Below, piece after piece: positions 2,160 to 64,000 of a stretch of 64,000 nt of DNA. The stretch lies in assembly GCA_025531455.1 (NCBI GenBank), contig JAMYHL010000016.1, forward strand, positions 124,001 to 188,000. The letters run 5' to 3'. This DNA comes from Apiotrichum sp. Y4204. Taxonomy: Eukaryota; Basidiomycota; Tremellomycetes; Trichosporonales; Trichosporonaceae. The notes beneath the pieces are model-generated. The model made no database searches and was not told where the DNA came from. It worked only from the letters and a program-made list of their open reading frames with translations. The translations under genes and the position numbers were made by a program. Within the stretch, counting starts at the first letter, position 1; each line of letters begins with the position of its first letter.

Positions 2160-2416
2160 GATAGACATTTATAGCATCATCAATCATGCAGGATTCATAG
2201 AGATCTAGGACAGATTGAGTGTCTGGGCACGTTGTGATCACTGTCTGCTTCCTCCGCGCACTGTTGTCACACATGCATGTTGTTACTAATCATATCGACT
2301 TCCTCATTTTCGTTCGCTCTCACACCCTCATTCTCACAGCCTCAAGCGCGTGTACGTTCCCACCCACTCTCGCGCAGTCGCACGACCCGGGCTCACACAC
2401 GGATTGCATCCGGCTA

Positions 2417-3103
2417 TCAATCGTGGAGGTACGGCGCCGCCCAGGGCTTGACCCCGAGGTCGTTCACATCGATACCCTCCTTTTCCGCAACCGCCTTCCA
2501 CGCCGGGCGCGCCCGCATCTCGTCGCGCCAGCGACGGAGGTTCGGGTACTTTGCGGCGATGGCGTCGATCGATCCGTCCCAGGAGAGCGTCGCGGCGGCA
2601 AGGAGGTCGGTGACGGAGGGCTCATCGCCGACGAGGCATTTGCTCTCTGCGAGCTGGGCATCGAGGGTGGCATAGATGTTCTTGAGGCGGTTGAGCGTCA
2701 AGAGACGGATACCATGTGCGTACTCCTTGTTGTCCTGGTCCTTGTCGGCGTAGAACCAGTCACGGAGGGCGGGGAGGAGGCTGTTGACGACAAAAGTGTG
2801 GGTTTCGAGGAACCGCGCGCGCTCGGGCGATCCAACCTGCGGTCCCGAGATGGGGCTCGCGTGCCGCTCCGCAAGCAGAATCGCGATTGCTCCGGCTTCG
2901 CTGACTGGATGTCCGTCGATTACCAGCGCAGGCACCCGGCCCTTGGCGTTGACGGCCTTGTATGCCGGCTGCTTCTGCTCGCCGTCCGGGAGCGAGACGT
3001 TCTCAAACTCGTAGCTCACCCCCGAGGGGGCAAGTTCCTCGAGGATGAAACGGATGCCGGTGGACGCCGTGTTCGGGCACCCGTAGAGTGTGTATGTCGG
3101 CAT
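2417..3103 (-). CDS. Glutathione S-transferase, intronless
   Basis: A 228-residue cytosolic glutathione S-transferase, which conjugates glutathione to electrophiles or reduces peroxides. The start at 3103 was chosen because MPTYTLYGCPN begins the thioredoxin-like first strand. The reading frame stays open about 118 codons further upstream, but that part is low-complexity promoter sequence. The N-domain shows the glutathione-binding elements: a cis-Pro loop (GRVPALVIDG) and the SEAGAIAILLAE motif. The C-terminal helical domain includes LVGDEPSVTDLLAAATLSWDG, matching the family's N-capping D. It is one of very few intronless genes here; nearly every neighbour has several introns. That could mean retroposition, transfer or simple intron loss. 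The subclass is not resolved. It shares a 0.8-kb divergent promoter with the asparaginase gene. Confidence 0.9.
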   Translation of the reverse strand: MPTYTLYGCPNTASTGIRFILEELAPSGVSYEFENVSLPDGEQKQPAYKAVNAKGRVPALVIDGHPVSEAGAIAILLAERHASPISGPQVGSPERARFLETHTFVVNSLLPALRDWFYADKDQDNKEYAHGIRLLTLNRLKNIYATLDAQLAESKCLVGDEPSVTDLLAAATLSWDGSIDAIAAKYPNLRRWRDEMRARPAWKAVAEKEGIDVNDLGVKPWAAPYLHD

Positions 3104-3884
3104 CGTGGGAAGGCGTGGTGGGAGGCTCTGTGGTGGTGGTGGGAAGACGGTAGTGATGGTAATGGGAGTGATGGGAGTGGTGGTGGTGATAACTGTGTAG
3201 AGCAGCAGGAGAACGCCAAGACACCGAGCAATCGCGCCCAGCGCGCAGCAGCGTACGCAACACCGCGCGGCGACGAGCAGGCAAAAGAAGGTGGGCAGCC
3301 GAGGAGCGAGGGAGCCGTGAGGGAGCCGTATAGCCGTAGAAAGGCGGGGGCAGGGCTGGACCGCGGACCGGCTGCGAGCTCCGATGAGCACATCCGACCC
3401 GGACTCCGATGCGGGGCCCCGGGAAGAGGTGGGGCAGAGCGTGTGGGGGGTGACCAAAAGTGGCTCGTTACGAGAAGAGCGCTAGCCTTTACTAGCCGTT
3501 ATTTTTGGTCGCCGATGGGGGACACATGTGAAGGGGTCGGTCGTCATTTCCCATTCCGTGGGTCCAGATTTTCCCATCTTGCGGGCGGAACATATGGCGA
3601 GCAGGCGTGATGGGATATTGTGCACGGACGATGGGATAAAACGCGTTTAGCGAGGTATCTGTGGATATCTGGGGATGGGTGCTGTGGGGATGGGTGCGAA
3701 TGGATGCGTTGTTGATACTTATATTAGTTTGTGGGGGCTGTCACTTTGTCTCATCCCGACTTATTGCCCAGCTGCCCCGCACATATTTCTGCCCATCAAA
3801 TTCATAAACACGTAACGCCCACAAGACGCGCATCAAGCCTCTACAACAGACTATCAGACCGACCAGGCCGGTGGCAACAACACC
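3104..3884. promoter_or_regulatory. Divergent promoter region between GST and asparaginase
   Basis: No convincing gene. The part nearest the GST start is a TGG/GGT-rich tract (about 3110-3195). The asparaginase side holds repeated GGGGATGGGTG-like words (3670-3705), one ACGCGT near 3640 and a TATA-like TACTTATATTAG at about 3716. Long frames over this stretch are low-complexity artefacts. Confidence 0.5.
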
Positions 3885-5411
3885 ATGTCGACTACGCCGC
3901 ACGCGATCCTGTGCGCCTCGCCTTTGCCAGGCAAGGCGAACAAGGTGCTAGTTCTCGGCACGGGGGGCACGATCGCGAGCGAACGCACTGCCGAGGGCTA
4001 CAAGCCGCTGAACGAGGCGACGGCGCGAGACAGCTTTTTCAAGCGGATCAGGCAGCATCCGCAGCTGAGCGACGCGCCGCCCGAGTGCTTTGCCGCGCCC
4101 GTGCAGAGCAAGAAGCTCGGCAGGCACAGGCTCTATCCCGCGCTGAGGACGCCGCCCCTCGACGAGAAGGAGAGCCGCGTCACGTACGAGATCCTCGACC
4201 TCGAGAACCACATGGACTCGTCCGAGATGACTCCTGCGGGTGGGCAGCACGCGATACGAACAATATACTCACTCCAGACTGGAACATAATTGCCTCGCTC
4301 ATCCACTCGCACTGGGACGCATACGCGGGCTTTGTCGTGCTCAGCGGGACGGACACGCTGGCGTACACGAGCTCGGTGCTCACGTTCCTCTTTGCGGGCG
4401 CGGGTAAGCCGATAGTGGTGACCGGTGCGCAGATCCCGCTGCGCGAGACCCGCAGCGACGGGTGGTATAATCTCCTCGAGAGCTTGATTGTCGCCGGCAG
4501 CCTGCAGTATACCGGCGTCGGCGTCATGTTCTATCACCAGTGGCTACAGGGATGCAGGTGAGTCCTGGCGGGAGGGGAGAGTGAGAAGGAGGGATGGGGA
4601 CGAAGAATCGCCATCGGGCGCGAGCTAACACCGCAGAGTAACAAAGGCCTCGCCCGATCTGCTCAACGCCTTCCAGACACCCTCCGTGCCGCCATGGATG
4701 CGCATGAACGTCAAGATCTGTGAGTCCAATTCAGAGCCAACGAGGTCACGAGCACGCGGTGCCGAAGCTCGTCCAGAATGGCGAGGACGCAACGAAGAGC
4801 GGGGCAGCCGTACTCGCCTCTGTACTCCATCCTCCCCGCCGCTCCAAGCTCACACCCAGCCGTCTTCCCACACCTCGCGCGCCGCTCCCCCGCCCGTCCC
4901 CCGCCGCTCATAACGCTCTCGACCAACCCGTCCGTCCTCTCGTGCGCAATCTACCCGGGCATCACAGGCTCCGTCCTCGCCGCACAGATCCACAGCATGC
5001 CGACCTGCCGCGCGGTCATCATCTCGGCGTTTGGCAGCGGAAATCTCCCCGTGAAAGAGGAGAGCGGCGTGCTCCAGGCCCTAGAGGCGACCGTCAAGCG
5101 CGAGATTCTTGTCGTCGTCATTTCCGAGTGTACGTTGAGAACTTTTACTTTTGCTGACTTTTCCAGGCCACATTCCGAATATCTACCCGCTGTACGCGCT
5201 CGGCGTGCGCCTCCTCCGCATCGGCGTACTTCCCGGCTATGACATGACACACGAGGCGGCATTCGCAAAGCTCATCTGGATCGTGAGCCAGCCCGAGCTG
5301 AGCTTTGCCGAGCGCCAGCACCTGTTCCAGACGCCGGTCGCTGGCGAGATGAGCGTCGAGATTGTGGATGAGGAGGAGGCGCCCGAGGTGAAGGGCCATT
5401 GTTCGAATTAG
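3885..5411 (+). CDS. L-asparaginase (cytosolic, bacterial type I/ASPG-like)
   Basis: Hydrolyses asparagine to aspartate and ammonia. Exons are 3885-4239, 4278-4557, 4637-4719, an exon ending 5129, and 5167-5411. The fourth exon most simply starts at 4860 (410 aa); a start at 4800 also keeps frame (430 aa), so that acceptor is uncertain. Both catalytic signatures are present: VLGTGGTIAS near residue 30 with the nucleophilic Thr, and LSGTDTLAYTSSVL, the second Thr-Asp motif. RETRSDGWYNLLES and the C-domain GSGNLP and PGYDMTHEAA follow, where FGSGN and GFDMTSEAA occur in homologues. There is no signal peptide, which argues for a cytosolic enzyme. Introns 1 and 4 are only 38 and 37 nt. It converges on the 4E-T-like gene. 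Confidence 0.85.
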
Positions 5412-27823: not shown

Positions 27824-29650
27824 ATGTCTTCCGATCTGTAAGTCTGGATAGCCTGTCATGCCTGTCATGCCGGCGCGCGTGCATTGCTTGCTGGTCAACA
27901 ACGTGGTCTCACTGCCGGAGCACCCAACACGCACCTACTGGCTGTAGTGATCCGTACCCATTGCACCCAGGGCGTGTAGCTGTGACATTGTGATCTACTC
28001 AGGACATGTGCTGACTATCCCGCAGCGCTGATGTTGGTCTTATCGGCCTGGCCGTCATGGTACGTATTTGCTGGTCTACAGCATACATGTACCATTCGCA
28101 GAGTTCTGACCTGGGCAGGGCCAGAACCTCATCCTTAACATGAACGACAAGGGATTCAAGGTCTGCGCCTACAACCGGTGAGTTGCGACAGGTGGCATGG
28201 GCGGCATGAGCACTGGCTGACTTGATTCCCAGTACTACCTCTAAGGTTGACCACTTCCTTGACAATGAGGCCAAGGGTGAGTATGGACCGCGGACAGTGG
28301 TTGAAGCAAGTTGCTGACAGTACAGGAACCAACATCATCGGCGCTCACTCCATCGCGGAGCTCTGTGCCAAGCTCAAGAAGCCGCGCCGTATCATCCTTC
28401 TCGTCAAGGCCGGCAAGCCTGTTGACGACTTCATCCAGCAGCTCCTTCCTCACCTCGAGAAGGGTGACATCATCATTGACGGTGGAAACTCGCACTACCC
28501 CGACACCATCCGCCGCTGCAACGAGCTCGAGAAGCAGGGTATTCTCTACGTCGGCTCTGGCGTTTCCGGCGGTGAGGAGGGTGCTCGTAACGGCCCCTCG
28601 CTTATGCCTGGTGGTTCGGACGCCGCCTGGCCGCACATCAAGGAGATCTTCCAGAAGACCTCCGCTCAGGTGAACGGCGAGCCCTGCTGCGATTGGGTCG
28701 GTGGTACCGGATCGGGCCACTACGTCAAGATGGTTCACAACGGTATCGAGTACGGAGACATGCAGCTCATCGCGGAGGCCTACGACATCCTGAAGCGCGG
28801 TCTTGGCCTCAAGGACGACGAGGTTGCCGACATCTTCGCCAAGTGGAACGACGGTGTCCTCGACTCGTTCCTTATCCAGATCACCCGCGACATCCTCCGC
28901 TACAAGGACGACGACGGCGAGCCGATTGTTGACAAGATCCTTGACGCGGCAGGACAGAAGGGTACCGGCAAGTGGACTGCCATTGACGCCCTCGACTACG
29001 GCATGCCCGTCACCCTCATTGGCGAGGCTGTCTTTGCTCGCTGCCTCTCGTCGCTGAAGGAGGAGCGTGTTCGCGCGTCCAAGGTCATCCAGGGCCCTCC
29101 CGCTCAGCCTTTCCAGGGCGACAAGCAGCAGTTCATTGACGACCTTGAGCAGGCTCTCTACGCCTCCAAGATCATCTCGTACGCTCAGGGCTTCATGCTC
29201 ATGAGGGAGGCCGCCAAGGTCAACGGTTGGGACCTCAACAACGCCGGTATCGCTGCCATGTGGCGCGGTGGCTGCATCATCAAGTCGGTCTTCCTCTCCG
29301 ACATCACCGAAGCCTACCGCCAGAACAAGGGCCTCGAGTCGCTTCTTTTCGCTCCCTTCTTCCAGAAGGCCCTTGCCAACGCCCAGGCTGGATGGCGCCG
29401 CGTCAACGCTCAGGCCACTCTCTGGGGTATCCCCATCCCCGCCTTCGGCACCGCCCTCTCGTTCTTCGACGGATACCGTACCGCCGTCCTTCCTGCCTCG
29501 CTCATCCAGGCCCAGCGTGACTACTTCGGTGCTCACACCTTCAAGGTCATGCCCGGCAAGGAGAACGACCACCTCAAGGCTGGCGAGGACATCCACGTCA
29601 AGTGGACTGCCACATCGGGCAACGTCTCGTCGTCGACCTACAATGCTTAA
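27824..29650 (+). CDS. GND1: 6-phosphogluconate dehydrogenase, decarboxylating
   Basis: Oxidatively decarboxylates 6-phosphogluconate to ribulose 5-phosphate, making NADPH, in the cytosolic pentose phosphate pathway. Exons 27824-27837, 28026-28059, 28119-28177, 28233-28276 and 28326-29650 give 491 aa, the usual length. The coenzyme fold begins DVGLIGLAVMGQNLILN and continues with VCAYNRTTSKVD. Substrate and catalytic blocks GVSGGEEGARNGPSLMPGG, KMVHNGIEYGDMQLI and GTGKWT are intact, and the tail ends in the dimer-arm region. All four introns lie in the first 500 bp, which is common for strongly expressed fungal genes. Codon use is very biased to C-ending codons, which also creates a 451-codon antisense frame that should be ignored. 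Confidence 0.98.
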
Positions 29651-30000
29651 GTATCACCTCCCTCCGGCGAAAGGAAGGATGTAGTAGTAGTTTATATGAT
29701 GCAGTATGCGTCCATACCCCGACTATAGGGGGCATGTCGCTCGTGACTTGGCATTGCAGTATGCAGCATGTAGCAGAGCATGCGGTGCATCAGTGATACT
29801 GGGAGCAACGAGCTCATCGGTGACAGAACTCAACTCAGAATGCCATGTGGGGCCCAATGAACCAAGCTATCCCACGCGGCAGCCGTGGGAAAGCTTGCCT
29901 CCCTCCAATATTTTGGCATCATCCACTCCAATATTTTCGAAAATCGACACCGTTTTTGCCTTCTCAAACCATTCTCCAATTCCACTTTATCCATTTCCAG
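29651..30000. promoter_or_regulatory. Intergenic space between 6PGD and RPA34
   Basis: Carries the 6PGD 3' end and a CT-rich leader (about 29895-30000) directly before the RPA34 ATG. No gene. Confidence 0.5.
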
Positions 30001-46657: not shown

Positions 46658-47894
46658 ATGTCTGAACCTTCCACGTCGTCGAGTTCATCTCTCCTTCATC
46701 TCCAACGTCCTCGTCGGGACTACTCTCATGTCTCGATTCCAGCGCCATCTGAGTCGCACATTCACATGGTTGAGTCCACTTCCTGTACGTATACATATTG
46801 CAGTATCCATTGATGAGTTATGCCCCAGACTCTTGAGTGCATGCGCTGACGTTTGCAAGCTTCTCTCCATTGTAATGATGTCCCTCTCGCACCTGCTTTC
46901 TGTCCTTCCCCCCCGGGCCCGTCCTTGAAGGTGGACACAGAGGGTAAGCGTCCCTCTCCTCTTCGTCGTGCTTCATCATATGGTGATATTGCTTCGTATG
47001 CAAACACCATGATGAAGCCGGCGGAGAAATCACTAGCTTCGCTTCAGCATACACAACCACGTCTTGCAAAACCCCGCAGCTCGTGGCAGGTGAGTTGGGT
47101 CGTCATCGAGTTGGCACTGTAACCTTGACATTGACACTGTTTACTTTCAGCCTGATCGAGATTCCGTATTCTGCAGTCAGCCGACTTGCTCAACAAGATT
47201 TACCAACGGTATTTTATCGTTTGGTGCTCGTCGGCACCACTGTCGCCTTTGTGGTCTCATCTTTTGCGACGGCCATTCAACCGGCCGTCTGCCGTTATTG
47301 CAGGGAGCCAACCGAGACAAAGTCGAGCCTGTGCGTGTCTGTGACGCTTGCTTGGCAACTGGGGATGACAGTGCTCTTCGAGAGAGCCGCTTGTCAAGCC
47401 TGGATGACATCTCCATCAACGAGAGCCGGTACAGCGATTCCACTCCCAGTCTCATCCATTCCAGTACCTCAGTAACCGACGAGTCTCTTCTTGAACCAGA
47501 ACCCGTGACCCTTCGTCGTTCGCAGTCCTTTACCGCCATCTCCGAATCGAACGGACTAGCGCCACTGGAAAGTTGGATGGATCGGTCTGGTGTGTTGTCG
47601 CTTTACCCTCTGGCTGTGCAAGCCTCTCATTCACGCCGGGCTCCCACTGCTTCTTCCCCTGTCGCCAAGGTTGCTGCCGGCCCTCTTTTCGGTCCGTCCG
47701 TGGCAGAACGTCGTGTAGCACAGGAAAAGGAGAAGGAACGTATTTCACTTCGTCGTCGTCGCAATGTCCTGACCTGGGCCGCAAATGCAGCTGACGATGG
47801 TTGCAACTCCGCCCTCGGCGACGGACGTGAAGCTTTAGTAGACTCGAATCCGACACCGACCTTGGAGCGGCGGCTGGACTGGTCAACGTTTTGA
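46658..47894 (+). CDS. FYVE zinc-finger protein with a Cys-to-His change
   Basis: Exons 46658-46784, 46860-47089 and 47151-47894 give 366 aa. The FYVE domain lies at roughly residues 118-185. It has the WxxD element (SSWQPDRD), a first Cys pair spaced C-x4-C (FCSQPTC), the PI3P-binding core RRHHCRLCG, then IFCDGHS and VRVCDACLATG. Such fingers target proteins to endosomal membranes rich in phosphatidylinositol 3-phosphate. Where most FYVE domains have C-x2-C after the core (CGKCS-like), this one has C-x2-H. The rest is Ser/Pro/Arg-rich and disordered, with no second domain seen, so the cargo or partner is unknown. The start at 46658 is the first ATG of the frame; 39 upstream bases are open only from a TTG. 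Confidence 0.82.
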
Positions 47895-48516
47895 TATTTG
47901 CCGGCGAGGCGTGCAAAAAACACGTTGTAGTGAACTCCGGCTCCAAATGTTGCCATGCATCTGCAGCAGACACCACACAACGCTGTGGCGTCGCCTGATC
48001 TTCTCTTTACTCGCGATGCATCGTCCAAAGTAAGAGGGTCAGGATGATGAGGATGAGATGGTTTATCAGTGTGCGGCATCATACCGAACGAAATACTGTA
48101 GGTAGGACAAATGCTGGCACAAACAATCCTCCGCGCACGCAGAGGAAGCACTGGATTGCTTTATCATGTATGTCCACCTGTCGGCTGCTTCCCTTCAGCC
48201 ACTCGATAAGGGGGCTTGAGTTGTATGGTTGCATCGCGTTTCCACTTGGTCGCTCGTGGCAAGATCAATGCCATCGGTCATTTGGGGCCCATTCGGCCCG
48301 TTTGGTTAGTCACCGAGGGCCTGGTTATCAGATCGATCGGTCCCGTCAAGTTGACTGGACACAAATGACATCATAGTCTTTCTCCATTTTCCGTACAAGA
48401 ATATGTGTGATTTTGGGTTGATGGGTTGGATTCATTCGTTACTTTTATCGCTTTGATCCTCATTTCCGTCCTTCAAGTCTTTGTCATCTGGTACGGTTGT
48501 CGGTGCCCGTTCAAAG
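47895..48516. promoter_or_regulatory. Upstream region of the Artemis-like gene
   Basis: Carries the 3' end of the FYVE gene and the promoter of the nuclease gene. No gene or clear motif. Confidence 0.45.
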
Positions 48517-50374
48517 ATGGCGGGTCTGTATCGTAAGTTCACCTCTGAGGGTCGTCCTGACATGCCTCTCAGATGGACACGTCCTAGAGATTCCCCTCAT
48601 CCGCGTCGACTGTTTCACAACGCCCAAGAGTCACCCTTTACTCCCTCAGTGGGATGATCATTCCAAACCTCCTCGACCAGCTCCTTCTGCCCGGCTCTTC
48701 TTGCTCACACATGTTCATTCTGATCACTTGACCGGCCTGACGAAGGCGTTTTGTGGCAAGATTGTCTGTTCTCCGGAGACGAAACGAATGCTGTGGCAGC
48801 TAGAGGAGGAGAAGGAACGTTGCGTCTTTGACGAAGGGAAGAGAGAGCTTCGGAGGCCCAAGTACGACTTTCTGCGACCGAGACCACTGCAGAGCCACCA
48901 ACATGGAGGTGCTCTTTATGACCCTATCGTGAGTAATGGCGCACGAACACCAACTTATGGCAAGGAAGCCAGGCCGTACGGTGAACCCAAACAATACAAT
49001 CTGGGATGGTATGAAGGGAGGGAGATTATCGTTACAATCACGCTGTTTGAGGCCAACCACTGTCCTGGGTCCACCATGTAAGGCTTTCAAAACTTTGTGA
49101 ACGGCTCTCTAAACATGACAGGTTTCTTATCACATCGGACCACGTAGCGATTCTACACACAGGAGACATAAGGGCCGATAAGATTTGTTTGCAGACCTTG
49201 AGAAGAAATCCAATCATTCAAGAGTACCTTGTCCCCGACGGACACCCTGTGGCCCCTCGCCGCCGTCTTGATCGAATCTACATTGACACAAGCGCCTTGT
49301 GGGTTCAACACGCCGGAGTCGCTGACTGACCATAAAGGATCGGAGGCGATATGCCTGAAAAGGTTTGTGAATTTTGTCTTCCTCGGGCTTCTCGATTTTT
49401 GACATCACAGGAAGAAGTGATAAATGACCTCGTCGATGTAATTACCCGTTATCCTCCACACACGGTCTTCTTTTTCAACGTTTGGACTTTGGGTTGGGAG
49501 GAAGTCATAAAAGCTGTGGGGGAGCATTTCCAGACATGTGTGAGTTCAACGTCCTTGCGACCGGCAAGTTCTGACCCAGTCTTAGGTCCACGTTGATCGC
49601 TACAAACGCACACTGTACGAAGCTGCCAGAACCGACAGTTTGCTGCTGAAATGGACAACATTGGATCCAACGACAACTCGGTTCCATGCCTGCGAACGCT
49701 ACCTTCAGTGTAAACAGTCTCGGCCGGCGAAAGGGGTTTTGACTGTTCGGGTCAATATGGTAGAGGCAAAGGAGTCTACCTGGGACTTGGAATATCTCGC
49801 TATGCTGCGGTCCTTGGAAGCGGCGGCTTTGGGAATGGCCAGTTGGCCGACTACAATCGTACGTGAGAGGGAGATATTGGTGCAAATTACCTGACCATCC
49901 CAGCTCGTTCCTTACGCCCGCCACTCCTCGCTGCCTGAACTGGCACGGTTCGTCAAATTGTTCCAACCGCAAAGCCTTTCTCCAAACACCCTGCTTCCCC
50001 ACCTGGGCGGACTCGACTACTTTTTCATGCCGGATTGTTTTGTGGGATCCCTAACAGTGGAAGCGTCCGCGCAGCTGAGAGAAGAGCGTACGCTGTGGTT
50101 TGCGCGAAGCTCGCGACATGGTCATCAGTGGCTCGAGAGGATGAATCAGCAAATGACATTGCTTCCATTACCCTTCACCACGCTTGATCGCCACCGTACG
50201 ACTGACGCCCCCGACAAACTATCCACAGAACGGCAAGATGAGCGTCGTCTCAGTGCTGTGTCCCCCAGTGAAAGTCGTCCGAGCAAGATGCCCAACCACC
50301 GGCAGGCAAGTAAATATCGCTTGAACACCACTCACTTCAAATCTCTCGTTCAACGTGACTGCGATACACCATAG
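48517..50374 (+). CDS. Artemis-like (SNM1/DCLRE1 family) metallo-beta-lactamase nuclease
   Basis: Exons 48517-48532, 48573-49077, 49122-49298, 49338-49362, 49411-49539, 49586-49858 and 49904-50374 give 531 aa. The metal-binding signature HVHSDHLTGL (H-x-H-x-D-H) is intact, followed by LFEANHCPGSTMF and ILHTGDIRAD, as in SNM1 nucleases. The beta-CASP part reads VFFFNVWTLGWEEVIKAV, VHVDRYKR and RFHACERY. The last two stretches resemble Artemis (VHVNKLD, IHACRHP) more than Pso2/SNM1A. The enzyme would trim or open DNA ends and hairpins in double-strand-break or cross-link repair in the nucleus. The tail is disordered. It converges on DNMT5 with only 120 bp between stop codons. Confidence 0.85.
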
Positions 50375-50430
50375 GAGCAGGACCGCACAGCTCTTCACGC
50401 AATGTACAATATGCATACTATCTCCTATAC

Positions 50431-50464
50431 TACTCATGGGTACTCATGGGGGTGGGGGGGGGGG
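50431..50464. repeat. Duplicated TACTCATGGG plus a G-run
   Basis: Two perfect tandem TACTCATGGG units (50431-50450) run into a guanine tract broken by one T, ending at 50464. It lies between the convergent stops of the Artemis-like and DNMT5 genes. Confidence 0.85.
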
Positions 50465-50494
50465 ATCTCGATTGGTAACTATCTAGTGGATGCC

Positions 50495-53400
50495 TTACTC
50501 ATCGTCATCCAACAGCACACACTCGACAGATTCATTGCTGGGACGCCTGGCTAACGCCTTGCGACGAGGGACATAGTCCTCCTTAGGAAGCTCAACGTAG
50601 TCGGGTTTGCTCCTAAGCTCGGCCGTGCGGGCATTGAAAATGGTCATGTCAATGGTGTCCAGGGCCAAAAGGCGGTGAATGTGGACAGTCTTATTCTGAC
50701 CGAAACGTCGAACTCGGCCAATCGCCTGAGTTTCGACGGCTCTGTAATCGAGAAGCGAGGTGGTGAAAAGTGGACCGAGGAAGATCGCATGGTTTGCAGT
50801 CGTCAAATTGGATCCCGCGGCCGATGCATCATTCATCTTGAGGAGCAAAACGCGAGCAGTATCGGAGTCGGAGGACTGGAAACGATCCAATGTGTTTGCG
50901 CGCTGTTTGACGGCGCCATGCAAGGTAGCATGTGCGATACCTGCGGCCTTGAGAGCTTCCGAGACTTTGGGATAGAGGTCTTCCCATTGCACAAACACCA
51001 AAACACGTTCGCGGTAGGGGATAAGCTTGATGAGAGATGCAAGTCGCTCCAGCTTGGCGCCAAATCGTCCCGATTTGAGTTCTCCTTCGATACCCAGGGA
51101 CGCCACCTTGACAATGTTGGTGTGTCGGACAGCCGCATGGCATTCGTCGCCCTTAACACAGCGCTGTTTGTCGGCCGCTTTCGTCATGCAGGAGAGACAT
51201 GACACGTGTCCGCAGCAACTGAGAATCGCCATTGACAGTTCGGGTGAGCTGGAGGGCCGATGCCCGCATTCTGAACGCTCCAACACGGCGGTCCGTTCCG
51301 CGGAGCTATGCTGAAGCTGCCGGATCACGTCGAAGAATCGGAGGGATCGCACACGGGCCACCAGCTCTTTGGAAAGACGACGAAGCAAGTGTGTTTGTTC
51401 ACGTAGCAACCATTTCACGTCGTCGAGGGTCTCCTTCGCCTGGAAGGTCGGTATCTTGCCATCCGCTGGGACGTCTGGGATTGCACCAGCGCGGAAGTTG
51501 CACTTCTCGAGAACCGCAACGAGACGACGCGCGGCCTCGGCGTCACCGTGGTGTGATCCGAGGTCGAATGAAAAGTCCACCCACTCCGTGAATGGCTGTC
51601 GCTCATCCTTGCTGAAACCCCCCTTCTTGCGAATCCAGGCACGCATACCAACAGCCTGGTTGACGGTACGGCGGAGATCTTCCTCGCAGCCTTCAAGCTG
51701 ATTCTTGCGAGCCGTAGCGATATGCTGACAAGCCTCCAGGGCCGATCTCGCATCACGATTCTTGTCTTTGAGGTCAAGGGTAAAATGGCAACAGCGCTTC
51801 AAAAGAGCCTCCTCAGCGGTGCGAGAGTCGGCTAGCGCTTCCTCGAGTCGAGCGTTGCGATCGCCTTGCGAAACGTTTTTGAACTTTGTTTCCTTCCGAC
51901 TAGAAAATGAGCATAGAACATCACAACACACTTACGCCTGCATTTCCAGCGCCTGAAGATGGTGCTCAAGTTCCAGATACACAGCCCCCTCACTTGCGGG
52001 CAATTTGATGGTATGAATGTGTTCAACAGTAGGAATGTCGTCGATCTCGGCAATGTTCTGACGGACAAAGGTGTTGAGGAACTCTTGTGCCAGATCTTCG
52101 CGACGTTGGTGCCACGCGCTAGAATGAATCTCCCGGAAGGCATGGAACTTCTCGGCCTGTGTCTTCTCTTTCGCACGCGCCTTGGCCACTTGAGGACCTC
52201 CCTCGGCGTCGTCTTGAACTCCGAGGTGGATGCCCATGAACGTGGCAATGCTTCGAATCGCAGGGAAGTCATTAACGGGAGGGGTGCCGGACAGAATCCA
52301 TTTGTAGCACGAGGAGAGCCGCAGTACTGCCGCCAGAGATCTCTTCTCCAGGTATGTGAATTCGTCCGCAATCACTCGACGGAAGCTGTTGTCAGACATT
52401 GGTGTGTGAACAAAGGCCTACCGGAACATGTGCACGACTGGGCTGGCCAACAGGCGGAAGTCCTTCTGCGTGGTTGAGCTACGAAGTGATTCCTTGCCTT
52501 TCGGATCGTGGAACGTTGGCTTGTCGGTTTCAATCCCAACTTCTTCTTCTTCGTCCTCATCGGCCTCCCAAGAATTCTCATCGGTCTTAGACTTCTTCGT
52601 TGTACCGGCCTTTGACTTCTTCGTCGGTCGACTGTCGGCATCGTATTTGTCGCGATAGGCAGCACCTTTCAAACGTTTACCGAAGCTGGCCGCTTTCAGT
52701 TGGTTCGTTTTGCTTTCCGCTTCCTCAACAAGGTGGCGTTGATTGTCCGCCATACGGCTCTGCGCAGCAGCAGCACCCTCCGTTTTGAGAACTTCGGTTT
52801 GGTCCAGAAGAGTCTTCATAGCCGAATCGAGTCGTTCTGAAAAGAAGCGACCGCCGTTCTTGTCGCTAAGCCAGTCTATCGGATGCGCAGACAGGTATTC
52901 AACGCGCTGCCAGTAACCCTCAGATTCGAAGATGTCGGCAGCCATCACAATTATGTCTGCCTTTTGCAGATCCGCAATACTCATACCGTTTAGGTCTTTC
53001 ATATTTTGAATCACAACGGTCTTGAATCGCGTGCCAGTGAACCGGTCAATCTCGCTAGGCCATTGCTTGCTGAGATGGCCAGGCACAACAACCAAGGTGG
53101 CTTTCAGGTCGATAAGTCCCGCAGGCTCGGGCTCGGGTGCAGGGATCTCGGTGGTCTCGGCGATGAGGGCCAAGGAAATAATGGTCTTGCCGTAACCGAC
53201 TTGGTCGGCGATCACACCACCACGCACCATGACGTGTCGCTCTGCCTTTCCCTCCGCCCGCCAGCCCACCGATGGCAGAGTCGCTTCGGCAATTTCCTCC
53301 TCCACAAATGTGTGAGTCTTGTTTTTGGGTTGTTCTTGCTGCCGCATCCACCACAATGACCTCAACTGCTCCTTTCGAAGGGGAAGTATTAGGTTCTTAG

Positions 53401-56400
53401 GCTGAGCGTGCTGAGGATCACGTTTGTTGCTGGGTAGAACGAATAGACGAGGAGGTCGAGGCGCTTCAGTCACCCGATTGGGAGTCAAACGCCAGGATAG
53501 CGTTACCGTTCCTTTACTTTGACCGGGCGGAAGTCGTGAGAGTGCTCTATGAGCGAGAGAGCGAACATTAAGGCCAACGCGGAGGGATCCAACGTCGTTG
53601 TCCAGACGCAGCTGTACCACAAAGGGCGACGGTCGATTTTTCAGCGCCTTGGATCGTCAGCCATGTCCAAACGCATTAGCTCACCTGTTCATAGCGTCCA
53701 GCTTCCAAACGGTCCTCGAATGCGATAACAGTGCTTTTGGTTTTGCCGCCATTCTTGTTGGGCTTGCCCGGCTGACGAATCCAATGAATAGTAGGAGGCA
53801 GCGGGGCGCAATGGCCACACTCTCCTGGCTGCTTTGTGAGTAACTTTGGACACCACATCTTCCTTACCTCAACGTCGGCAAGAGCATTCCACGACGACAG
53901 ATGGTCCAGCGGAGGCAGTCGTTCAGTAATCCAAGCCAGTTGCGCAAAAGTCCCATTGCCTTGATGTTCGAGATCAATCTCTCGCCAAACATCGCGGCTC
54001 CACATATCCTCAGCATGTGATGGATCCAGCGAGACTCGAACCGACAACAACGCAGCCGCATGCTTGCAATTGTCTGTTGCCCGAGAAACTGCACGTCCGT
54101 TCTTTGGAATGGCATAGGTGGCCTCCATAAGTTGATCGTCGATAGCAACATCGTGGCCGCCGATAGCGGTCAGACGAACCGTTTTGCTAGGTGTCCACGC
54201 TCCCGAGATATCGAGATTGACCGTTTGTTTCTGCGCCTTCGATTCGCGCCAGCGTTTGTCGAGCGACGCAATGATGTCACGCTCGGTATAGTAGTCGAGA
54301 CGATCAATGGATGTGGAGAAGACATAAGTGTCTTCAGCTGCCTCACCACATCGGGAAGGATCCAGGAAAAGATAGAGAGGAGGGAGGAGAGGGTCGTCCG
54401 AGTCTTTGGAGTGAAGTGATGCTTGAGCTTGACCGCACTTTGGAAGCAGTGTGTAGACACCGGAGAGGTCGCGATCCAAGACCGTCTTCGCTTTTGGAGG
54501 GAGTTCAACGGAGATTTGAGACCAGCGGGATGTGCCGTCTAATCCAGCTTGAAGTCCCAGGGAAGACTGCCATGTGGGCACCATCTCTCCACAGCCCTTG
54601 ACCTCCACGGCAAATCGTTGGTACGATGGAATGCGCCACTCCCAAGTGCCACCGAGACCACCGAGAAGATCATGTTGGCTCATGTCAAGCCGCATACGAG
54701 CCACTGGACGTCGCAAAAGCTCTCGGAGCCGACTCTTCACTGGTTCAGCTGAAGGGGCCTTGACAGTAAGGCGCCACTCCGGAGCCGGCGTGCACAGACA
54801 CAGTTCCAGGACGGCCGATGGGGCTTCGTACACTGCAGTCCAAACAGCTTGGCGCTTGAGATAACGGAAGCGGAACTCTTTACCATTTACCGCCCCTACG
54901 AGGGCTTCGGTCCACAGGTCCCAGTCCGCAGAACGCACATCTCCCTTGCCAAGTGCGGTTGCCTTGTCGCGAACCGCTACCAACGAGGATGAAGACACAC
55001 CGGACACGTTGATGCGCATGGGAAGCAGCTCCTTGATGAGCTTCTCAAACTCGATGGTCTCTATGCGCTTGTCGTTACAAGGCTTGTATTCATGTTCCGG
55101 GCGGCCTCCACACGCCGTGCACGATTTGCCACCACAGGCCACGCAACGGTTGATAGGTGATGTCGAGATGCCTGATTGACCCTCACACTCGCAATGCCGA
55201 GAGCTTCGCTGAGCCGCATCAAGCAGCTCAGTGAGATCTACATTCCCAATTTTGGCGAGGTCCAATGGGTGTGACTTGAGTTTGGTTTCGCCAACGATAC
55301 GAGAAGCGACAGCCTGCTGGGTTTCGTCCTCACGCGCTTTGTGCGCCATCGACTCCTCGACAGCATCGGCACCTTCGGGCAGTTTGTCCACCGCCAGACA
55401 GAGAGCAGCCAGCATCGATGCGCCCACCACCGTTGTGGTCATGGCGTTGCCCGCGAGATCCGCCAGTTGGTCCTCGTTTTCGCTGGTGAGCAGCAATTCG
55501 CGGACTGGGATGCCTTGAAGAGCGAGAGCTTCACGACCCGTCACAGGGCCTCCACGGTTCGTTACCCAAGGGATCATGTTAGGTGTGAGGCATGGGGCCA
55601 ATGCGGTACGAGACGAACCCGTTTGTCGGTCTACATTCTGGCTGACATTCCAGATGCAGGCCTTGTACCCAGCGTCTACTCCGTCCTTGGCCATGCGGAG
55701 AGTTGAAATTTCCAGAAGGTCGACGACACGCTCCGTCTGGGCCAACAACCAGTCGTTCCACGTCCAATCGAGGCCCTTGCACACTCCCGCTTCTTGCCAG
55801 GCCGTCAATGGTCGGAGAATGCCCAGCCCTTCCTCCTGACGCGCGCGAGCATGACGCGACTCACAGCGACCCCAATCGGTGGGCTTTCGCTGGTTGCCAT
55901 CTCGGTAGAGCCTGGCAGCAGCCAGATCCATCCGAGCTCGATGAATGTTGGCGTCATCTGCCGGAAGAAGGAAAGCCTCGAAAGGAACGGACCATGGTCG
56001 TCTGAGATCGCGAACAGTTGTCACCCATTTCTCCGGAAGATGTTCTCTTTTGTCTTTGCTGTATGGCGTCGCAAAGAGGTATACGCGAGTACGGGTGTGT
56101 GGGATGTAGTACTCCTTCGTGTCAAGCCTAGTCGATCAGTTCTTGCCCCAAAGGAAGTCATACCTGGTGTACTGTGCGTCGTAATCGATCTCCGCAAAGT
56201 ATTCGACCACCTTGTCCCACGGCGCACTGCAAACGTTTTCCAGAATCACAATTGGAGGTTGGTGCTTTTTAACCCATTGGAGCATGCCACGGAATGTGCG
56301 ACCGGACTCTCCATTGGCGTCAATATCCTGCTTTTCGTTGTTCAGGCCAGAGTAATCGACGCACGACGTCCCGGCAATAAGAATCTGGCCGTCAGTCATG

Positions 56401-57771
56401 GACATCGCAGATAAAACCCACGTCAACATTGCCTGGCACATCAACCCGGGAGCCATAAGCCGTATGCGCCTTCTGGCGACCCAGTTCCGTGACGTCACGG
56501 AAGAGAATAGGAGGGGCAAAGTTACGTTCAATGTAGGCCTGTTTAAAAGGTTCAATCTCGCAGGAGAAGACATGGTCAAACTCCAAGTTTACGTCGTGTT
56601 GCTTCTGGATGGCCTTGGCGATCATGTTGAGGGCAAGCAGGGGGGATTCCGTGCCGCTAAAACAGTTAGTCCCAGGACCGTTTACACGACGTACGAGCAC
56701 ATAGTTGCAACACGCAGCTTGCGCCCATTTAGTCGTGTGACAAGTTTGACGATGGTGGGCACCTGGGTGTCAGCGCAAAGGAGGTCGTCAGTCTGTGGCC
56801 TACCTTGGAGGTAAGGTCGTCAAACATTTCATTGATGTTGCTTATCGGAGCCAAGTCGACGTTCATATCTTTGGCGTTCCCGACATGCTTCGAAACGACG
56901 GGGCTTCTGAAGGAACCGCTGTTGTCAGCGTTGTCCTATCAAACACGCACATGTTGACTGATGCCTTTTTCCGAGTTGGGGGCCGTTTTCCCCACCCTCC
57001 TAAGAACTTTTTAACCTTGTCCTTTTTGGGTGAGTCTGCTGGTTAGCTCGGGAGCCTTGCGTTACAGTCATGCGGTTTACGCACCATCATCAGGAGTTGA
57101 GGATTCACCACCGCTCTCGCTTTCATTCGATGGATCAGATTTGAAGCTGCCGCCATCACTATTCTCATCGCCCGACGAGTGCACAAATTCGGCATCGTCC
57201 TCAGTTGTTGGTTTGGGCCGCCGCGTGGATGCTGAAGAGATCTGCTTCGGTTTACGTTCGGGTTTCGACTGAGGAGGAGGCTTGCCGTTACGTTGTGGGC
57301 GGGAGTTTGACCCCTGGGGTCGAAGAAGGTCGAAGGCGTTGCGTGTGGTTTTGGTGGGCTTCCTGGGATGCTTCTCGTAGAACTCTACAACGACAGGACT
57401 GTCGTCCTCGAGCTGATCTGCCTGTGTCCAAGAGCGGTCCTCAGTGTCGTACCCTTTCCAGTGAATGAGATACTCTAAAACGGTCTTGCCGCGATAGCAC
57501 CGGAACCTAGAGTCAACGATATAGTCGATCTCATACTCCTCTTCTTCAAGGTCTGGTAGGCTGCCGTCGTCGCCAGAGGACTCGTTATCAGAGGGGCTTG
57601 GCTCAGGCTGCTATCAGTATTCAACCATGATCAATGTGACCTTACGCGTTTCCGTTTGTTATGTCTGTTGCTATTGGTGAGAGGTGTGGTGTCCTCGTCC
57701 GAGTCGGCTGTCAGGTCGACAGTCAACATGGGTTTGGAAACGGCCCTCTTCAAGGAAGTCCGGTCCATCAT
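50495..57771 (-). CDS. DNMT5: DNMT5: ATP-dependent CpG maintenance DNA methyltransferase
   Basis: Eleven exons (57771-57646, 57610-57085, 57035-56951, 56918-56804, 56762-56695, 56656-56422, 56384-56164, 56127-53685, 53647-52422, 52385-51936, 51899-50495) give exactly 2299 codons. Domains: an N-terminal SIM-like TVDLTADSDED; chromodomain about 67-125 (EYEIDYIVDSRF..LIHWKGYDTEDRSW); methyltransferase about 290-700 with motif I TMCSGTESP, catalytic Cys393 in GTSCVDYS, ILENV (E434), HTRTRVY and GNAM; Cys cluster 771-809; SNF2 ATPase with VGYGKT (about 1423-1428), DEFT (1689-1692) and WILSGTPP; embedded RING about 2043-2085; helicase C with QAIGRVRRFGQ (2223-2233). The C-terminus is VECVLLDDDE. 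In Cryptococcus this enzyme uses ATP to copy CpG methylation onto hemimethylated DNA, its chromodomain reading H3K9me. Nothing is truncated. Confidence 0.96.
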
Positions 57772-58185
57772 GGTTGAAACCGCAACCACGGAGTCGGGAG
57801 GAGAGGTGGTGGAAGGCTCAACAAGATACGAAATGGAAAGTATGGGTTGTCAAGTTGCAAGTTGGAGCACTGGGCGAATGCAAGCTCTCGAGCTCTCATG
57901 CATCCGCACCAGTTACAGGCTCCAAGGTGCAGCCAGGCGGACGCTAACTCGGTTTCTAAGGGTCGCGACGCGTACGCATGAGGTGAGTAATAAATAAAAC
58001 GCGCTGTGTTTGATTTCGTCTTTTGAGCCAATAGGCGTTCAGATTGGATGGATGCGGAAGACGGACGCGTCACGGCGTCAAACGACGCGTCCTTGGGGGT
58101 GCAACGGGACCATAATCACGCTTCATACAGGCAGGTGTACTACGTTACGTAATAGAAAAGCAAAGGTATCATGATACCAGCTGGG
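57772..58185 (-). promoter_or_regulatory. DNMT5 upstream region with three ACGCGT boxes
   Basis: ACGCGT occurs at 57968-57973, 58065-58070 and 58085-58090, each preceded by G (GACGCGT), 197-314 bp before the DNMT5 ATG. This is the MluI cell-cycle box bound by MBF (Mbp1-Swi6) in fungi, which drives G1/S genes. The match is exact; use by the cell is inference. The region also holds the 3' end of the LAM-like gene. Confidence 0.55.
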
Positions 58186-60577
58186 CTAGTCGAGCTTGTT
58201 GAGGTTGTCGTGGTCGTGATTGCCAACCAACGACGCCCGCAGCTTGACAGACCGACTGTCAATCTCATCCAATATGCGAAGGAGCTCTGCCACTTCTTCC
58301 TTGGGTGTGGTAGCAGCCCGCTTAGCCAGAATGATACGGACCGCCTCGGCAACGTCGTCTTCAGTCGCGCCAAAACGTTGAATTCGTTTGACCTTGTGCT
58401 GAGAAACGGGCCGTGCAAGATAGGTGTAAATGTTAGAGGCGACCAAAATGGCGACAAGGATCATCATGAGAGAGCTCTTGCTTATGGGAGAGTCGGATAA
58501 CAAATCGGACAATGTGTTGACTGCGGTGCCTACGCCTTGACCAATGGACTTCAGACCGGACAGGACAGAATCGAGGGCTCCTTGCAAAAGCCAGTAATCG
58601 GCATCTTGGCGAGCACGACGGTTCTGAGCGGCGTACTCTTGAGCTTCGGTAGGGGTTGGCTCAACTGCCGCGGAATCTTCCTCGTCGTCGGCGTTCTCGG
58701 CGCCGGCTACAGCGAATTCCGTTGGATGCTCCTTCATATGCGCACGCATTTCCTTGGCGAGATCTTCATGGTACTGTTTCTGGCCATCGATGGCTGACTT
58801 TTCGATAATCCCTGAACATGTAAGCATCAATCAATATTGTGCTGTAAGGACTGTCTCTTACCTTTAACCCATGACTTGCCCGTCCATTCCACCTCTGTTG
58901 TCACAGTCATGCGAGTTGTGGTAGCACTGGCCCAGCTGAAGCACGTCCGCGTCTTGACACTGAAAACACCCCCGCTAGGCACGTCGGGAGTCCGTGTAGT
59001 GGTAATCATGGAGATGTAGTCGTCAACGTCGCAGTGTTCGTGAACGTCAACAATATGACACTTTGTTTGCTTGGGTCCGATAGACCCGTTGAGAGGCTTG
59101 ATATATGTCATTGACCGAGAAAGCTTTTGATTCTCGTCTGGTCGCCAGTCCGAGGTCTCAATGTCTGCGTGGCATATCAGCAAAGATGGAGGGTTGGCAA
59201 CTAACCTCGCAAGTTTTGACTGCCAGACAGGAAGGTTCGAAACCAGCCGCTGTTGAAGATTAGGTTGTACACCTTCTCGGGCGAGCTTGGGAAGATGGCT
59301 TCCAAAGCTGTCTCGGCATAGTGCTGCCCATTCTTCCCGCAGGCACATTCGGTCGATCGATGAGCGGCAGGAGCCTGTTGACCCGCGCACTCCTCTGCAA
59401 CGGATTCAGGACGCGAAGCGCTATTGGCGGGACCGGATGCGGGCATCTCTGCACCAGGATGGGCAATACGCCAGATGTTCATAAGAACATCGAACGTAGA
59501 GTCGCGGGATATCAATGACGCAAACGTGTACTGGAGTGTCAGCTGGCTATGGAAAGAAGACCTATGTGACCTACCTTCTCTTTACCAGTAATGATACCAA
59601 TGGCGTTAGGGATCACCAGCGCTGTCATCTTCTTTTCAATCCGCTGGACGTCGGAAAATGGAATGATAAGCTGTACGATTAATACCCATCTTCTCCAGCA
59701 CTACTTACGTCCGTAACCCAACCGAATAGATTGGAATGGAAGCATATGTGATTCTCCGACACGTAAAGCCGTCCATGGACGAGAATGTCCTTTGCAAGGG
59801 CACATCCGTAATCTGTCATTAGCTCTGGTAGCACCGGAAACGAAGGGTGCAATGCTCACCTTCGATCAGATAATCTCCTTCATCAACGGTTGGAAACATG
59901 GCATGGAACTCGGCGTTTCGGCGGTTACTTGCGACAGCAAAGCCTGTCACGGGAAGGTTATCGAGGTCTTCGCCAATGCTCTCGTTGTCGCTTTCATCCT
60001 CAGTCCCGTAACCGTCATCGCTTTCGTAGTCGTGGGATAGAAGGTAAGGAGACCGACCACTTGAAACAGCTCTCGAACTTTGCCTCGTCGCAGCATCATC
60101 CCCAGTTCCGGCGATCTGTAGACCGCTCTTGGCCAAAGCAGCCGCTATGGTGTTTCCTTGGGAGATGGCGGAAGACGTCGAGGTTCGTCGGGAACGTCCT
60201 TTCTTCTTTTTGCCATCACCATTCGGAGAGTTTAAGCGCTCGGCAACCCTCTGAACAAGGGATTCGCGGTGATTCCGTGTGTCGACGCGGCCCAGGCCAT
60301 CTGAACCAGCTGTCAAGGACTCGGGTTCATCGGCCACGACCTGTCCGGACAGAGAGGGATTCGATGCGGTACTATCCCCGGTCACCACTACTTGGGGAGT
60401 TTCAGGCTTGTTGGGCGACAGTGGACGGTTCAAAGACGAGCTTGTGGTATCGACAGTCTTGGCCGATGTAGGAGCACGAAACAGTCTGGAAGGAGAACCA
60501 AACTCAGAGGTGTCTAGGTCCGCAGGCTCCAGTGGTGGAGGTCGAGAAGTTCTCTTGGACCGAAGAATTGAAGGCAT
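58186..60577 (-). CDS. LAM/GRAMD1-type sterol transfer protein (GRAM + VASt + TM)
   Basis: Exons 60577-59860, 59812-59709, 59670-59575, 59530-59206, 59164-58862 and 58811-58186 give 723 aa. After a disordered basic/Ser-rich N-terminus comes the GRAM domain (about 222-320: [66 protein letters not shown]). The VASt (StART-like) domain follows ([67 protein letters not shown]). A single C-terminal TM segment ([21 protein letters not shown]) anchors it in the ER. Yeast Lam/Ltc proteins of this build move sterol between ER and plasma membrane or vacuole at contact sites. The stop is 414 bp from the DNMT5 start on the same strand. Confidence 0.93.
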
Positions 60578-61829
60578 GATGTTATGAGGTTATCGGGCGT
60601 AGTTGGGAGATCGATGGGTGTTGCCAGCAGGAGGGAAACTGGTATTTATGTCGAGTAACCAAGTTCGAGAATTGAAGAGATGAGATCGAAAAGAGGAGCG
60701 ACTCGTCGGTCGGTTGACCAACACCAAACGAAGGTACCGACCGTTCGTCATCGGAGTGCATGTGTGTGCATGTGCAGCGCATGCAGCGCGCAGCGCTTGC
60801 CGCGGTAACGACGCTGCATGCGCTGCACAAGATGCCCATGACGCGGCACTGGTTTGCACATACCGCAAGGGGCCACCGGGCCGAGTCCAGCCCCAGCCAA
60901 CGGGCCAACGACCAGCCATAGAACAGCAGTTGTGTTGCGTCATTTCAAACCACCTGAACAACAACCTTGTTACGTAATGCCACTAGCCACACAGTTTCGT
61001 GTGTTGTCCTGCATTATCCAATTATCCAGTAGTGGCCAACAGGCAGCAGGCCAGCAGCGCAGCAGCTAGCAGCTTGCAGCGCTTGTGGATGCAGGATCTG
61101 CAGTGTGCACTAGCGCACTGCGGTTGGGCAATTGGGCAGGCAGCGCCCTCACACAGTCCCGCACGCCAGCAATACGCAATTTATGCAAAGTAGCAAATAC
61201 TCATGTGACACCACTGTGACAGCACGTCTGCCTGCATTCTTTGATGGGTGTGCGCGAGCATGTTTACATTCACAAATGGGATGATGGCCACGAGACCACG
61301 AGATCAAGCTATTGCAAACGAAGCTGGAATGCGGCACGCTTGAAAGAGTTGAGCTAGCATAGACAAATGTGCGGGGCATTGTGACTCGCACCGTCATCAG
61401 GCCAAAGAAAGAAACTCCGCCTTCCTGTGCAAGCCAAAGTAGCTCCCAGTTATCTTAGAGCACCTTGTCCCAAGGTGGGCTCACGATATCGACTCCGCTG
61501 AGCGACGAAAACAGCAGAGGTTCGTGAGGATGCTCGTGAAAGAAAAAAGATGAAGAAAACAAAATGGTCGCCGAACGCAGGTTTTTATAAAGTGCGACAG
61601 GAAAACAGGCACGGCGCGAGACTGGTTTCAGTCACAATATGAGAGTAGAATGACGTGTCATGTTTTTATCACTTTCCATAGGGCCCCATGGACTGACACG
61701 TGCTGTTCATATGCAGTCATACAGCATACAGTTGTACGCAGTTAGAACACTTCGAACACATATGGAGCTATGAAGCTTCATTTCAGTGACATGTCAACTG
61801 TGCATCTGCCTATGTAACATTCTTGGGAG
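60578..61829. promoter_or_regulatory. 1.25-kb region upstream of the LAM-like gene
   Basis: No gene supported. Holds an 18-bp perfect inverted repeat (60771-60788 / 60812-60829) and a GCAG-rich stretch (61030-61085). The iPGM 3' end lies at the far side. Confidence 0.5.
60771..60829. repeat. Perfect 18-bp inverted repeat
   Basis: Left arm TGTGCAGCGCATGCAGCG (60771-60788), right arm its exact reverse complement (60812-60829), with a 23-bp spacer that is itself GC-rich. It sits about 195 bp upstream of the LAM-like ATG and could form a hairpin or cruciform or bind a dimeric regulator. Confidence 0.9.
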
Positions 61830-63807
61830 CTACTTGGCAAGAGAGTGGCCGGTCATTTCTGAGAAACGTAAGGAATGGTAAGTTGCGCTTCACTCACCTT
61901 CGGGCTGGGGAAGACCCATGATTGTAAGGATGGTGGGAGCGACATCTGCCAAGGCACCCATCTTGGTCGAGTCCTTCAGGAGGCCCTTGTCACCAGTAAC
62001 AATGAACGGGACGGGGTCTGCGTGTGAATACAGCATTCGCAACCTAAGGACTCACTAGTAGTGTGAGCCGTGTGAGGGTTGCCCGTTTCCAGGTCAAGCA
62101 TCTGCTCCGCGTTGCCGTGGTCGGACGTGATAGCCAGGATGTAACCCGCCTCCTCGCATGCGTCGTAGATGGTCTTAACAGCAGCATCCGTAGCAGTGAT
62201 GGCCTTGACGGCGGCTTCGTAGACACCCGTGTGACCGACCTTATTTATCAGCTCGTGACAAGCGACATACGCACCATGTCGGGCGGGGCAAAGTTGCACA
62301 TCACAAACTCGTATTCGTTCGACTTGACCACCTCCGCAACCTTGTCAGCCACAGCCTGCGCGCTCATCTCCGGTTGCTTGTCGTAGGTGGCAACCTTCGG
62401 AGAAGGAATCATTGCGCGGCTCTCGCCTTCGTACTGCTTCTCCACGCCGCCGTTGAAGAAGAAGGTAACGTGAGCGTACTTTTCGGTTTCTGCACAGTTA
62501 GCTTACGTTGCCAACTACTATCGTACCGGCAATGTGCATCTGCTTGACGCCCTGCTTGCCGAGCCACTCGGCAAGCACATTGTCCATGGAGACAGGGGGG
62601 AAGGCAACAGGGAGGGTCCACTCCGGGTTATAGCGGGACATCGTGGTGATATTCTGTGTATTAGAGGTCCTCTCGATTAGATCAACGTACAAGACCCTTG
62701 GGGATCTCAACATCAATAGGCTTGTCGTCGAAAGCAAGAAGCTGGACGAGCTCGCGCATGCGATCGGAGCGGTAGTTGAAGGTGAAAATAGTGTCGTTGT
62801 CTGCCCGTCAACCGAAAGATTCGTTGGGTTTCGTTACACATACCCAGGATGCGGGTCGAGGCATCACCAAAGATGAGGGGCTTGACAAACTCGTCGGTGA
62901 CGCCATCTTCATATGACTTCTCCAGCGCCTTGACAGGGTCCTCAGCCTGCTGGCCTTCGCCCTTCACAAGAGCATCAACAGCGACCTTGACGCGGTCCCA
63001 GCGCTTGTCGCGGTCCATAGCGTAGTAGCGCCCCACGAATGTCACAAGCTCTCCAAGGCCGATTTCCTTGACAGCGTCGAGAAGCTGTTGAACGTACTTC
63101 ACAGCGGAAGAAGGCGCGGTGTCGCGGCCGTCACCAAAGGCATGGATGTAAACGTGGGGAATACCCTGCTCCTTAGCAGCGCGAACAAGAGCAAGGAGGT
63201 GGTTGATGTGAGAATGAACACCACCGTCTGAAAGGAGACCCATAAGATGAAGTCGACCATTGCCGTCCTTAGCGTGCTTGAGGCACTCAACAACGGCAGG
63301 CTGCTTCTTGAAGTCGTCCGTTTTGATAGCTCAAAGTTAGCAAGATAATCCGGAGTAGGCGTACATACCTTGGTCAATGCGCACGATATCCTGCCAGACA
63401 ATACGGCCAGCTCCAATGTTCAGGTGACTTGGGCGTCAGCAACAACATAGCAGAGACAGATAACAAAACGCACCCAACTTCAGAGTTGCCCATAAGGCCC
63501 TCCTTGAGGCCGACAGCCAAACCCGACGCGTCAAGCTCAACAAAGTTGTGCCTGTCGCGAATCGCGTCCATGTTAGTCGTGTCACCGTGGAAGATGGCAT
63601 TTCCCTTCTCGTTGTCCGAAAGACCCCAGCCATCGTGGACACTGGAATGAGGGCAATTTCATCGTCAACGGTTGCGAGCCAACTTACATGAGACAGACCT
63701 TCTCTGCGCATTGTCAGTACGGCATGACATGTAGGAAACGTACTCTGAACAGTGGTCTTCTGCTTCTTCGAGTCGTGCGGCGGTTCCTCAGCAGCACGGG
63801 CGGACAT
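61830..63807 (-). CDS. Cofactor-independent phosphoglycerate mutase (iPGM)
   Basis: Interconverts 3- and 2-phosphoglycerate in glycolysis using a phosphoserine intermediate and divalent metal. Eleven exons (63807-63744, 63703-63688, 63641-63474, 63427-63369, 63329-62844, 62800-62691, 62653-62527, 62489-62275, 62239-62056, 62017-61898, 61858-61830) give 525 aa. Motifs: [15 protein letters not shown] (metal Asp), [14 protein letters not shown] (catalytic Ser), [61 protein letters not shown] and [11 protein letters not shown]. Exon 2 is only 16 nt. Some fungi use the dPGM type instead or as well. Its 5' region runs to the window end with a CT-rich leader. Confidence 0.96.
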
Positions 63808-64000
63808 TTTGTAGTTGTTCGAGTTGGGGGATTGACGTTCGTTGGGAAGGAGTGGATAAGGAAAGATAGAACGTTGTGGATCGCAAGTCGAGCACATATA
63901 CACCCTGTCCGTTGTGGTTGATGTCTGTATCTACATACAGTACACTAGGGCCAGAGCAGGGATATCATAACAAACGTCATTGGTTCTCCCCGCTCTGTCA

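Follow-up and report, generated by a model that had tools for sequence, protein, structure and literature searches.

To our knowledge, no methyltransferase other than DNMT5 spends ATP on proofreading maintenance methylation, and the methylome of Cryptococcus is the one known to us that lacks a de novo enzyme. Cryptococcus DNMT5 is described as recognising hemimethylated CpG, with ATP turnover by its SNF2 motor opening the catalytic centre and other substrates being rejected (PMC13297926, PMC10538959). In the related genus Kwoniella, all species are reported to carry both Dnmt5 and a second enzyme, DnmtX, which has been lost in Cryptococcus and, in a separate event, in Bullera alba (PMC11185503); DnmtX is credited with de novo methylation (PMC7862722).

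Here, we describe a computational analysis of a DNMT5 gene in Apiotrichum sp. Y4204 and of the methylation and silencing genes that accompany it. We present evidence that the product of this gene is very probably orthologous to C. neoformans DNMT5, a CpG maintenance methyltransferase driven by ATP, and catalytically intact. Furthermore, we describe a second copy of this gene and a methyltransferase of the DnmtX clade elsewhere in the same genome.

Results

A predicted DNMT5 gene of eleven exons

The window, which is the whole 64,000-nucleotide stretch of DNA that was analysed (C68:124001-188000, by the contig label of this analysis), contains the DNMT5 gene on its minus strand (Table 1). The 10 introns are 36-46 nt long and all begin with GT and end with AG, and the joined exons, 6888 nt in total, form a single frame encoding 2295 amino acids and a stop codon. 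This is a predicted model, with splice sites picked from the sequence and the reading frame, and later from the second copy. A sequence-only reading of this DNA had proposed a complete DNMT5 gene whose 11 exons join without frame error into 2299 residues; the spliced model is indeed open throughout, in one frame, and its product is four residues shorter.

Table 1. Features of the DNMT5 gene, in window coordinates
Feature	Position	Strand	Basis
DNMT5 gene, ATG (at 57771) to stop (ending at 50495), 11 exons, 2295 aa	50495..57771	-	spliced model; 3134 bits to PDB 7r76_A
Exon 1	57646..57771	-	gene model
Exon 2, with chromodomain (residues 67-121 = 57535-57371)	57085..57607	-	gene model, Pfam
Exon 3, in poorly conserved linker; exon and borders are the least certain part of the model	56951..57038	-	gene model; second copy retains GT..AG at the exon 3 borders
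Exon 4	56804..56906	-	gene model
Exon 5, start of SAM motif CSGTESP (motif split by intron 5)	56695..56762	-	gene model
Exon 6, methyltransferase	56422..56656	-	gene model
Exon 7, TSCVDYS 56369-56349, ENV 56240-56232	56164..56384	-	gene model, motif positions
Exon 8, remaining methyltransferase, GNAM 55451-55440, central region	53685..56127	-	gene model, motif positions
Exon 9, SNF2 N lobe, Walker A GYGKT 53197-53183	52422..53647	-	gene model, Pfam
Exon 10, Walker B-type DEFT 52366-52355	51936..52385	-	gene model, motif positions
Exon 11, RING-like 51265-51113, Helicase_C 51055-50699	50495..51899	-	gene model, Pfam, alignment to 7r76_A

Elsewhere in the window, a run of G at about 50449-50465 separates the DNMT5 3' end from the plus-strand open frames upstream of it. 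A 6-phosphogluconate dehydrogenase frame occupies 28226-29653, opposite a 470-codon open frame that is probably meaningless; the named protein nearest to the dehydrogenase is from Vanrija pseudolonga (87%), and an unnamed metagenome protein matches a shorter part of the dehydrogenase at 92%.

The predicted protein retains the domains and motifs of DNMT5

The best solved relative of the predicted protein in the Protein Data Bank is 7r76_A (the enzyme of C. neoformans, under the record name 'DNA repair protein Rad8'); residues 159-2278 align with its positions 169-2291 at 3134 bits. An additional chromodomain stretch (residues 64-128) also matches this structure, and the last 1025 residues alone score 1559 bits. 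A chance match is excluded by this score together with the dN/dS of 0.057 between the two copies described below. Pfam places Chromo (PF00385) at residues 67-121 (34 bits, cut-off 25.1), DNA_methylase (PF00145) at residues 326-689 (57.5 bits), SNF2-rel_dom (PF00176) from residue 1363 and Helicase_C (PF00271) at residues 2110-2228, all above their cut-offs. Residues Y67, W92 and Y95, which by analogy with HP1 we take to be the aromatic cage of the chromodomain, are present.

The catalytic motifs are CSGTESP (residues 302-308), TSCVDYS (387-393), ENV (430-432), GNAM (681-684), GYGKT (1420-1424) and DEFT (1685-1688). They were followed through an alignment of 32 rows, comprising the window copy, the second copy and 30 relatives chosen among the 120 listed of 883 matches: TSCVDYS, ENV and GYGKT are kept in every row, CSGTESP and GNAM in 31, and DEFT or DEYT in 30, the remaining two rows being gapped. 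The chromodomain, methyltransferase and SNF2 ATPase named by the sequence-only reading, with the motifs it listed, are thus borne out by Pfam and by this alignment, and the conclusion that the predicted product is a DNMT5 with every catalytic motif is supported. That reading had also put a RING inside the ATPase. Its placement between DEFT and Helicase_C stands, and the region aligns with 7r76_A and retains the cysteines and histidine of SCCGH, but the Pfam match is weak (zf-RING_5 at residues 2039-2075, with E 0.057 and 13.8 bits, below the cut-off of 27.9).

The methyltransferase region (residues 284-700) is 84-88% identical to six Tremellomycete rows and 65% identical to Puccinia and Trametes; the linker at residues 130-265 reaches only 19-31% identity to the six Tremellomycete rows compared. 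Among the matches listed, full-length relatives with 62-67% identity are present in Kwoniella, Vanrija, Cutaneotrichosporon, Tremella and Cryptotrichosporon. In a quick tree the protein forms a separate, basal branch among the 18 Tremellomycete rows, at a fork that the tree does not resolve.

A second DNMT5 copy in a two-copy genome

A methylase-family profile search of the genome (48.9 Mb in 182 contigs) matched three places: the window gene, C128 and C2. The gene at C128:177224-184491 is a complete second copy of DNMT5, with 96.8% identity over 7279 columns; GT..AG is present in all 10 introns, and it is open across 2292 codons with no frame break. In the 2292 aligned codons the copies differ at 197 nucleotides, nearly all synonymous, and at 32 residues (protein identity 2260/2292), giving dN 0.0062, dS 0.109 and dN/dS 0.057. 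The ratio in the methyltransferase domain (residues 290-740) is 0.018, which indicates that catalysis is under selection. This purifying selection argues that both copies are in use. Open frames and dN/dS in the two copies rule out a pseudogene.

The flanks of the two copies are syntenic, with 94-95% identity, and window positions 47001-64000 match C128 at 94.8% over 16845 aligned columns. Eight further locus pairs were compared, and seven of them also match, at 87-95%; the eighth was a mistaken pairing. With the window and C128 forming a pair, and other loci pairing likewise, the genome is therefore a two-copy assembly: a hybrid, a dikaryon or a heterozygous diploid. Hybrids with genomes of 40-42 Mb are reported among the Trichosporonales (PMC8550739).

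A methyltransferase of the DnmtX clade

The gene on C2, which lies outside the window (locus L005), encodes a C5-methyltransferase in two frames, 1611-3077 and 3185-4300, with the motifs GPPC/QGFS (interrupted by an intron), ENV and GNAIN. The intron within the catalytic GPPC codon is largely a short tandem repeat. Five Tremellomycete proteins and an unnamed one make up the best six of the 251 relatives (120 listed) of the C2 protein, and identity is 30% to the protein of K. shandongensis and 39% to that of Cryptotrichosporon argae. In a 19-row tree, from which the K. mangroviensis DnmtX reference sequence was left out, the C2 protein falls in a seven-row clade (support 100/100) with proteins of Kwoniella shandongensis, Naematelia, Cutaneotrichosporon, Cryptotrichosporon and Vanrija and one unnamed protein; inside the clade the branches are long and less well supported. 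The K. shandongensis protein of this clade is the sole non-DNMT5 C5-methyltransferase found here in that species among the matches listed. This grouping, and the statements on DnmtX in PMC11185503 and PMC7862722, lead us to infer DnmtX orthology for the C2 gene and to view its product as a putative de novo enzyme. No Pfam BAH match was obtained for the C2 protein at E values to 0.5; the stretch preceding its methyltransferase can be aligned with the protein of C. argae, itself listed with PF01426. A second DnmtX copy, cut by the contig start, lies at C147:1-4000 (L053) and is 93.9% identical to C2 over 3394 columns.

Other silencing genes are also present. SRA (UHRF1-like) matches lie on C150 and C106, partial chromo shadow (HP1-like) matches on C157 and C99, Piwi matches on C132, C155, C2 and C112, and RdRP matches on C22, C98, C1, C5, C110 and C97; several of these partner-gene matches contain internal stops, which may be introns. 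The best solved relatives of a SET piece located on C114, of which C149 carries a 95% copy, are Clr4 and SUV39H2. This Clr4-like gene came from the SET search; a Pre-SET search of the genome gave no match, which carries no weight because its control gave none either. The genome-wide check that the sequence-only reading had proposed, for DnmtX, UHRF1-like and Clr4 partners, thus matched the DnmtX-clade gene on C2, SRA and a Clr4-like SET. The same reading had carried over from Cryptococcus, while not claiming it outright for this species, a methylome maintained in the absence of any de novo enzyme; against this speaks the C2 gene of the DnmtX clade, and a Cryptococcus-like maintenance-only system is not favoured.

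CpG composition and transitions at retroelements

CpG depletion was looked for as a sign of methylation at 17 retroelement loci (L036-L052; 3.2-3.3 kb around rve matches) and was not found; these loci are CpG-rich. Their median CpG o/e is 1.22, versus 1.02 in 44 background blocks (20 from the window and 24 loci around SET, SRA and chromo shadow matches), and only 3/17 (L043, L047 and L051) fall below 0.9. TpG/CpA is 0.89 at the retroelements versus 1.12 in the background, the opposite of methylation decay. Because an intact integrase frame served to locate them, the sample leans toward young copies.

CpG transition spectra were attempted for seven retroelement pairs, of which six aligned (L040/L042 gave nothing). 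The CpG transition ratio is 2.30 for L045/L046 and 0.65, 0.73, 0.77, 0.96 and 0.77 for the other five, and significance was computed for three of the six. A longer stretch of L045/L046 (L058/L059; C113:418000-426500 and C99:570800-579300), non-allelic and 97.5% identical over 4083 columns, differs mainly by transitions, at 47/1500 CpG positions versus 42/2964 elsewhere (odds 2.25, p 2.4e-4, uncorrected for six pairs). L037/L038 has a deficit of CpG transitions (odds 0.62, p 0.003), and L048/L049 gives odds of 0.72 (p 0.07). The gene-rich window/C128 pair has a slight excess (odds 1.28, p 0.016). The result is mixed: the excess in L058/L059 is the pattern that would be expected of methylation decay, and the five other pairs are without it, one of them reversed.

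DNMT5 might be intact while 5mC is at present scarce, absent or limited to few sites, the enzyme being kept for rare sites or for another role. The CpG-rich retroelement loci (median 1.22 versus 1.02 in the 44 blocks) would fit, as would the report that centromeres of K. pini are without 5mC (PMC11185503). We consider this unlikely, however, since selection on catalysis (dN/dS 0.018 in the methyltransferase domain) and the CpG transition excess in one young retroelement pair (odds 2.25, uncorrected p 2.4e-4) stand against it. A literature search on DNA methyltransferase and 5mC in Trichosporon found nothing relevant. The sequence-only reading had taken an intact copy to imply present or recent CpG methylation; with a mixed mutational footprint, the presence of such methylation in Apiotrichum sp. 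Y4204 is an inference.

Discussion

The mechanism described for Cryptococcus DNMT5 is most likely the one used here, because every motif is retained. By analogy with that enzyme, the chromodomain would dock on H3K9-methylated nucleosomes, the SNF2 motor would fire at hemimethylated CpG and permit base flipping, and the methyltransferase would then restore the mark. As in Kwoniella, a DnmtX-like protein could seed new methylation, which DNMT5 would afterwards copy.

The fragmentation of this single assembly into 182 contigs raises the alternative that the C128 copy was duplicated in assembly or has decayed into a pseudogene, leaving a single functional DNMT5 gene; 197 nucleotide differences in 2292 codons, nearly all synonymous and with the frame unbroken, syntenic flanks at 94-95%, and the similar matching of seven of eight other locus pairs (87-95%) make this very improbable. 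Least credible is a Rad8/Rad5-type repair translocase in place of a methyltransferase: public records do name relatives 'DNA repair protein Rad8', and the protein has SNF2 and RING-like parts and a weak match to RAD5 (6l8n, E 4.3e-12), but the DNA_methylase domain is complete, above cut-off and holds all catalytic motifs, which rules out a Rad8 repair protein, the best solved relatives are the DNMT5 structure set, and such 'Rad8' names are considered likely to denote DNMT5 (PMC7862722).

With two selected DNMT5 copies retained, a more speculative proposal, to which we give rather little weight, is that this is a two-parent fungus, hybrid or highly heterozygous, in which the two copies maintain two parental methylomes and the DnmtX-type enzyme seeds methylation at new retroelement insertions. 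If true, such a fungus would offer a natural way to see whether epigenetic memory remains tied to its parental chromosome or evens out once the genomes have come together.

The gene is what a Tremellomycete would be expected to carry, a well-supported addition to a known family within a methylation system that seems alive but unremarkable. DNMT5 proteins of Kwoniella, Vanrija, Cutaneotrichosporon, Tremella and Cryptotrichosporon have the same architecture by their listed Pfam domains, and the combination with a C2-type enzyme is not new, since public proteins of both kinds are already available from Vanrija, Cutaneotrichosporon and Cryptotrichosporon. C. neoformans DNMT5 (PDB 7r76, 7r77, 7r78 and 7t02) shares the chromodomain, the TSCVDYS methyltransferase, the SNF2 motor with GYGKT and DEFT, the putative RING-like insert and the C-terminal lobe, a single alignment spanning residues 159-2278; it differs in that Apiotrichum has two diverged copies, a poorly conserved linker at residues 130-265 and a DnmtX-clade gene in the genome. 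Compared with Kwoniella DnmtX, the C2 protein groups with K. shandongensis at 100/100, yet identity is only 30% and a Pfam BAH match is lacking. The predicted gene set of DNMT5, DnmtX-clade enzyme, SRA, HP1-like and Clr4-like proteins, Argonaute and RdRP resembles that of Kwoniella rather than maintenance-only Cryptococcus. The two copies and the DnmtX-clade gene make the setting somewhat more useful than an ordinary orthologue: a fungus with two selected DNMT5 copies and such a gene would be a complementary case to Cryptococcus, in which one could study the contribution of de novo methylation and see whether the methylomes of two parents remain separate.
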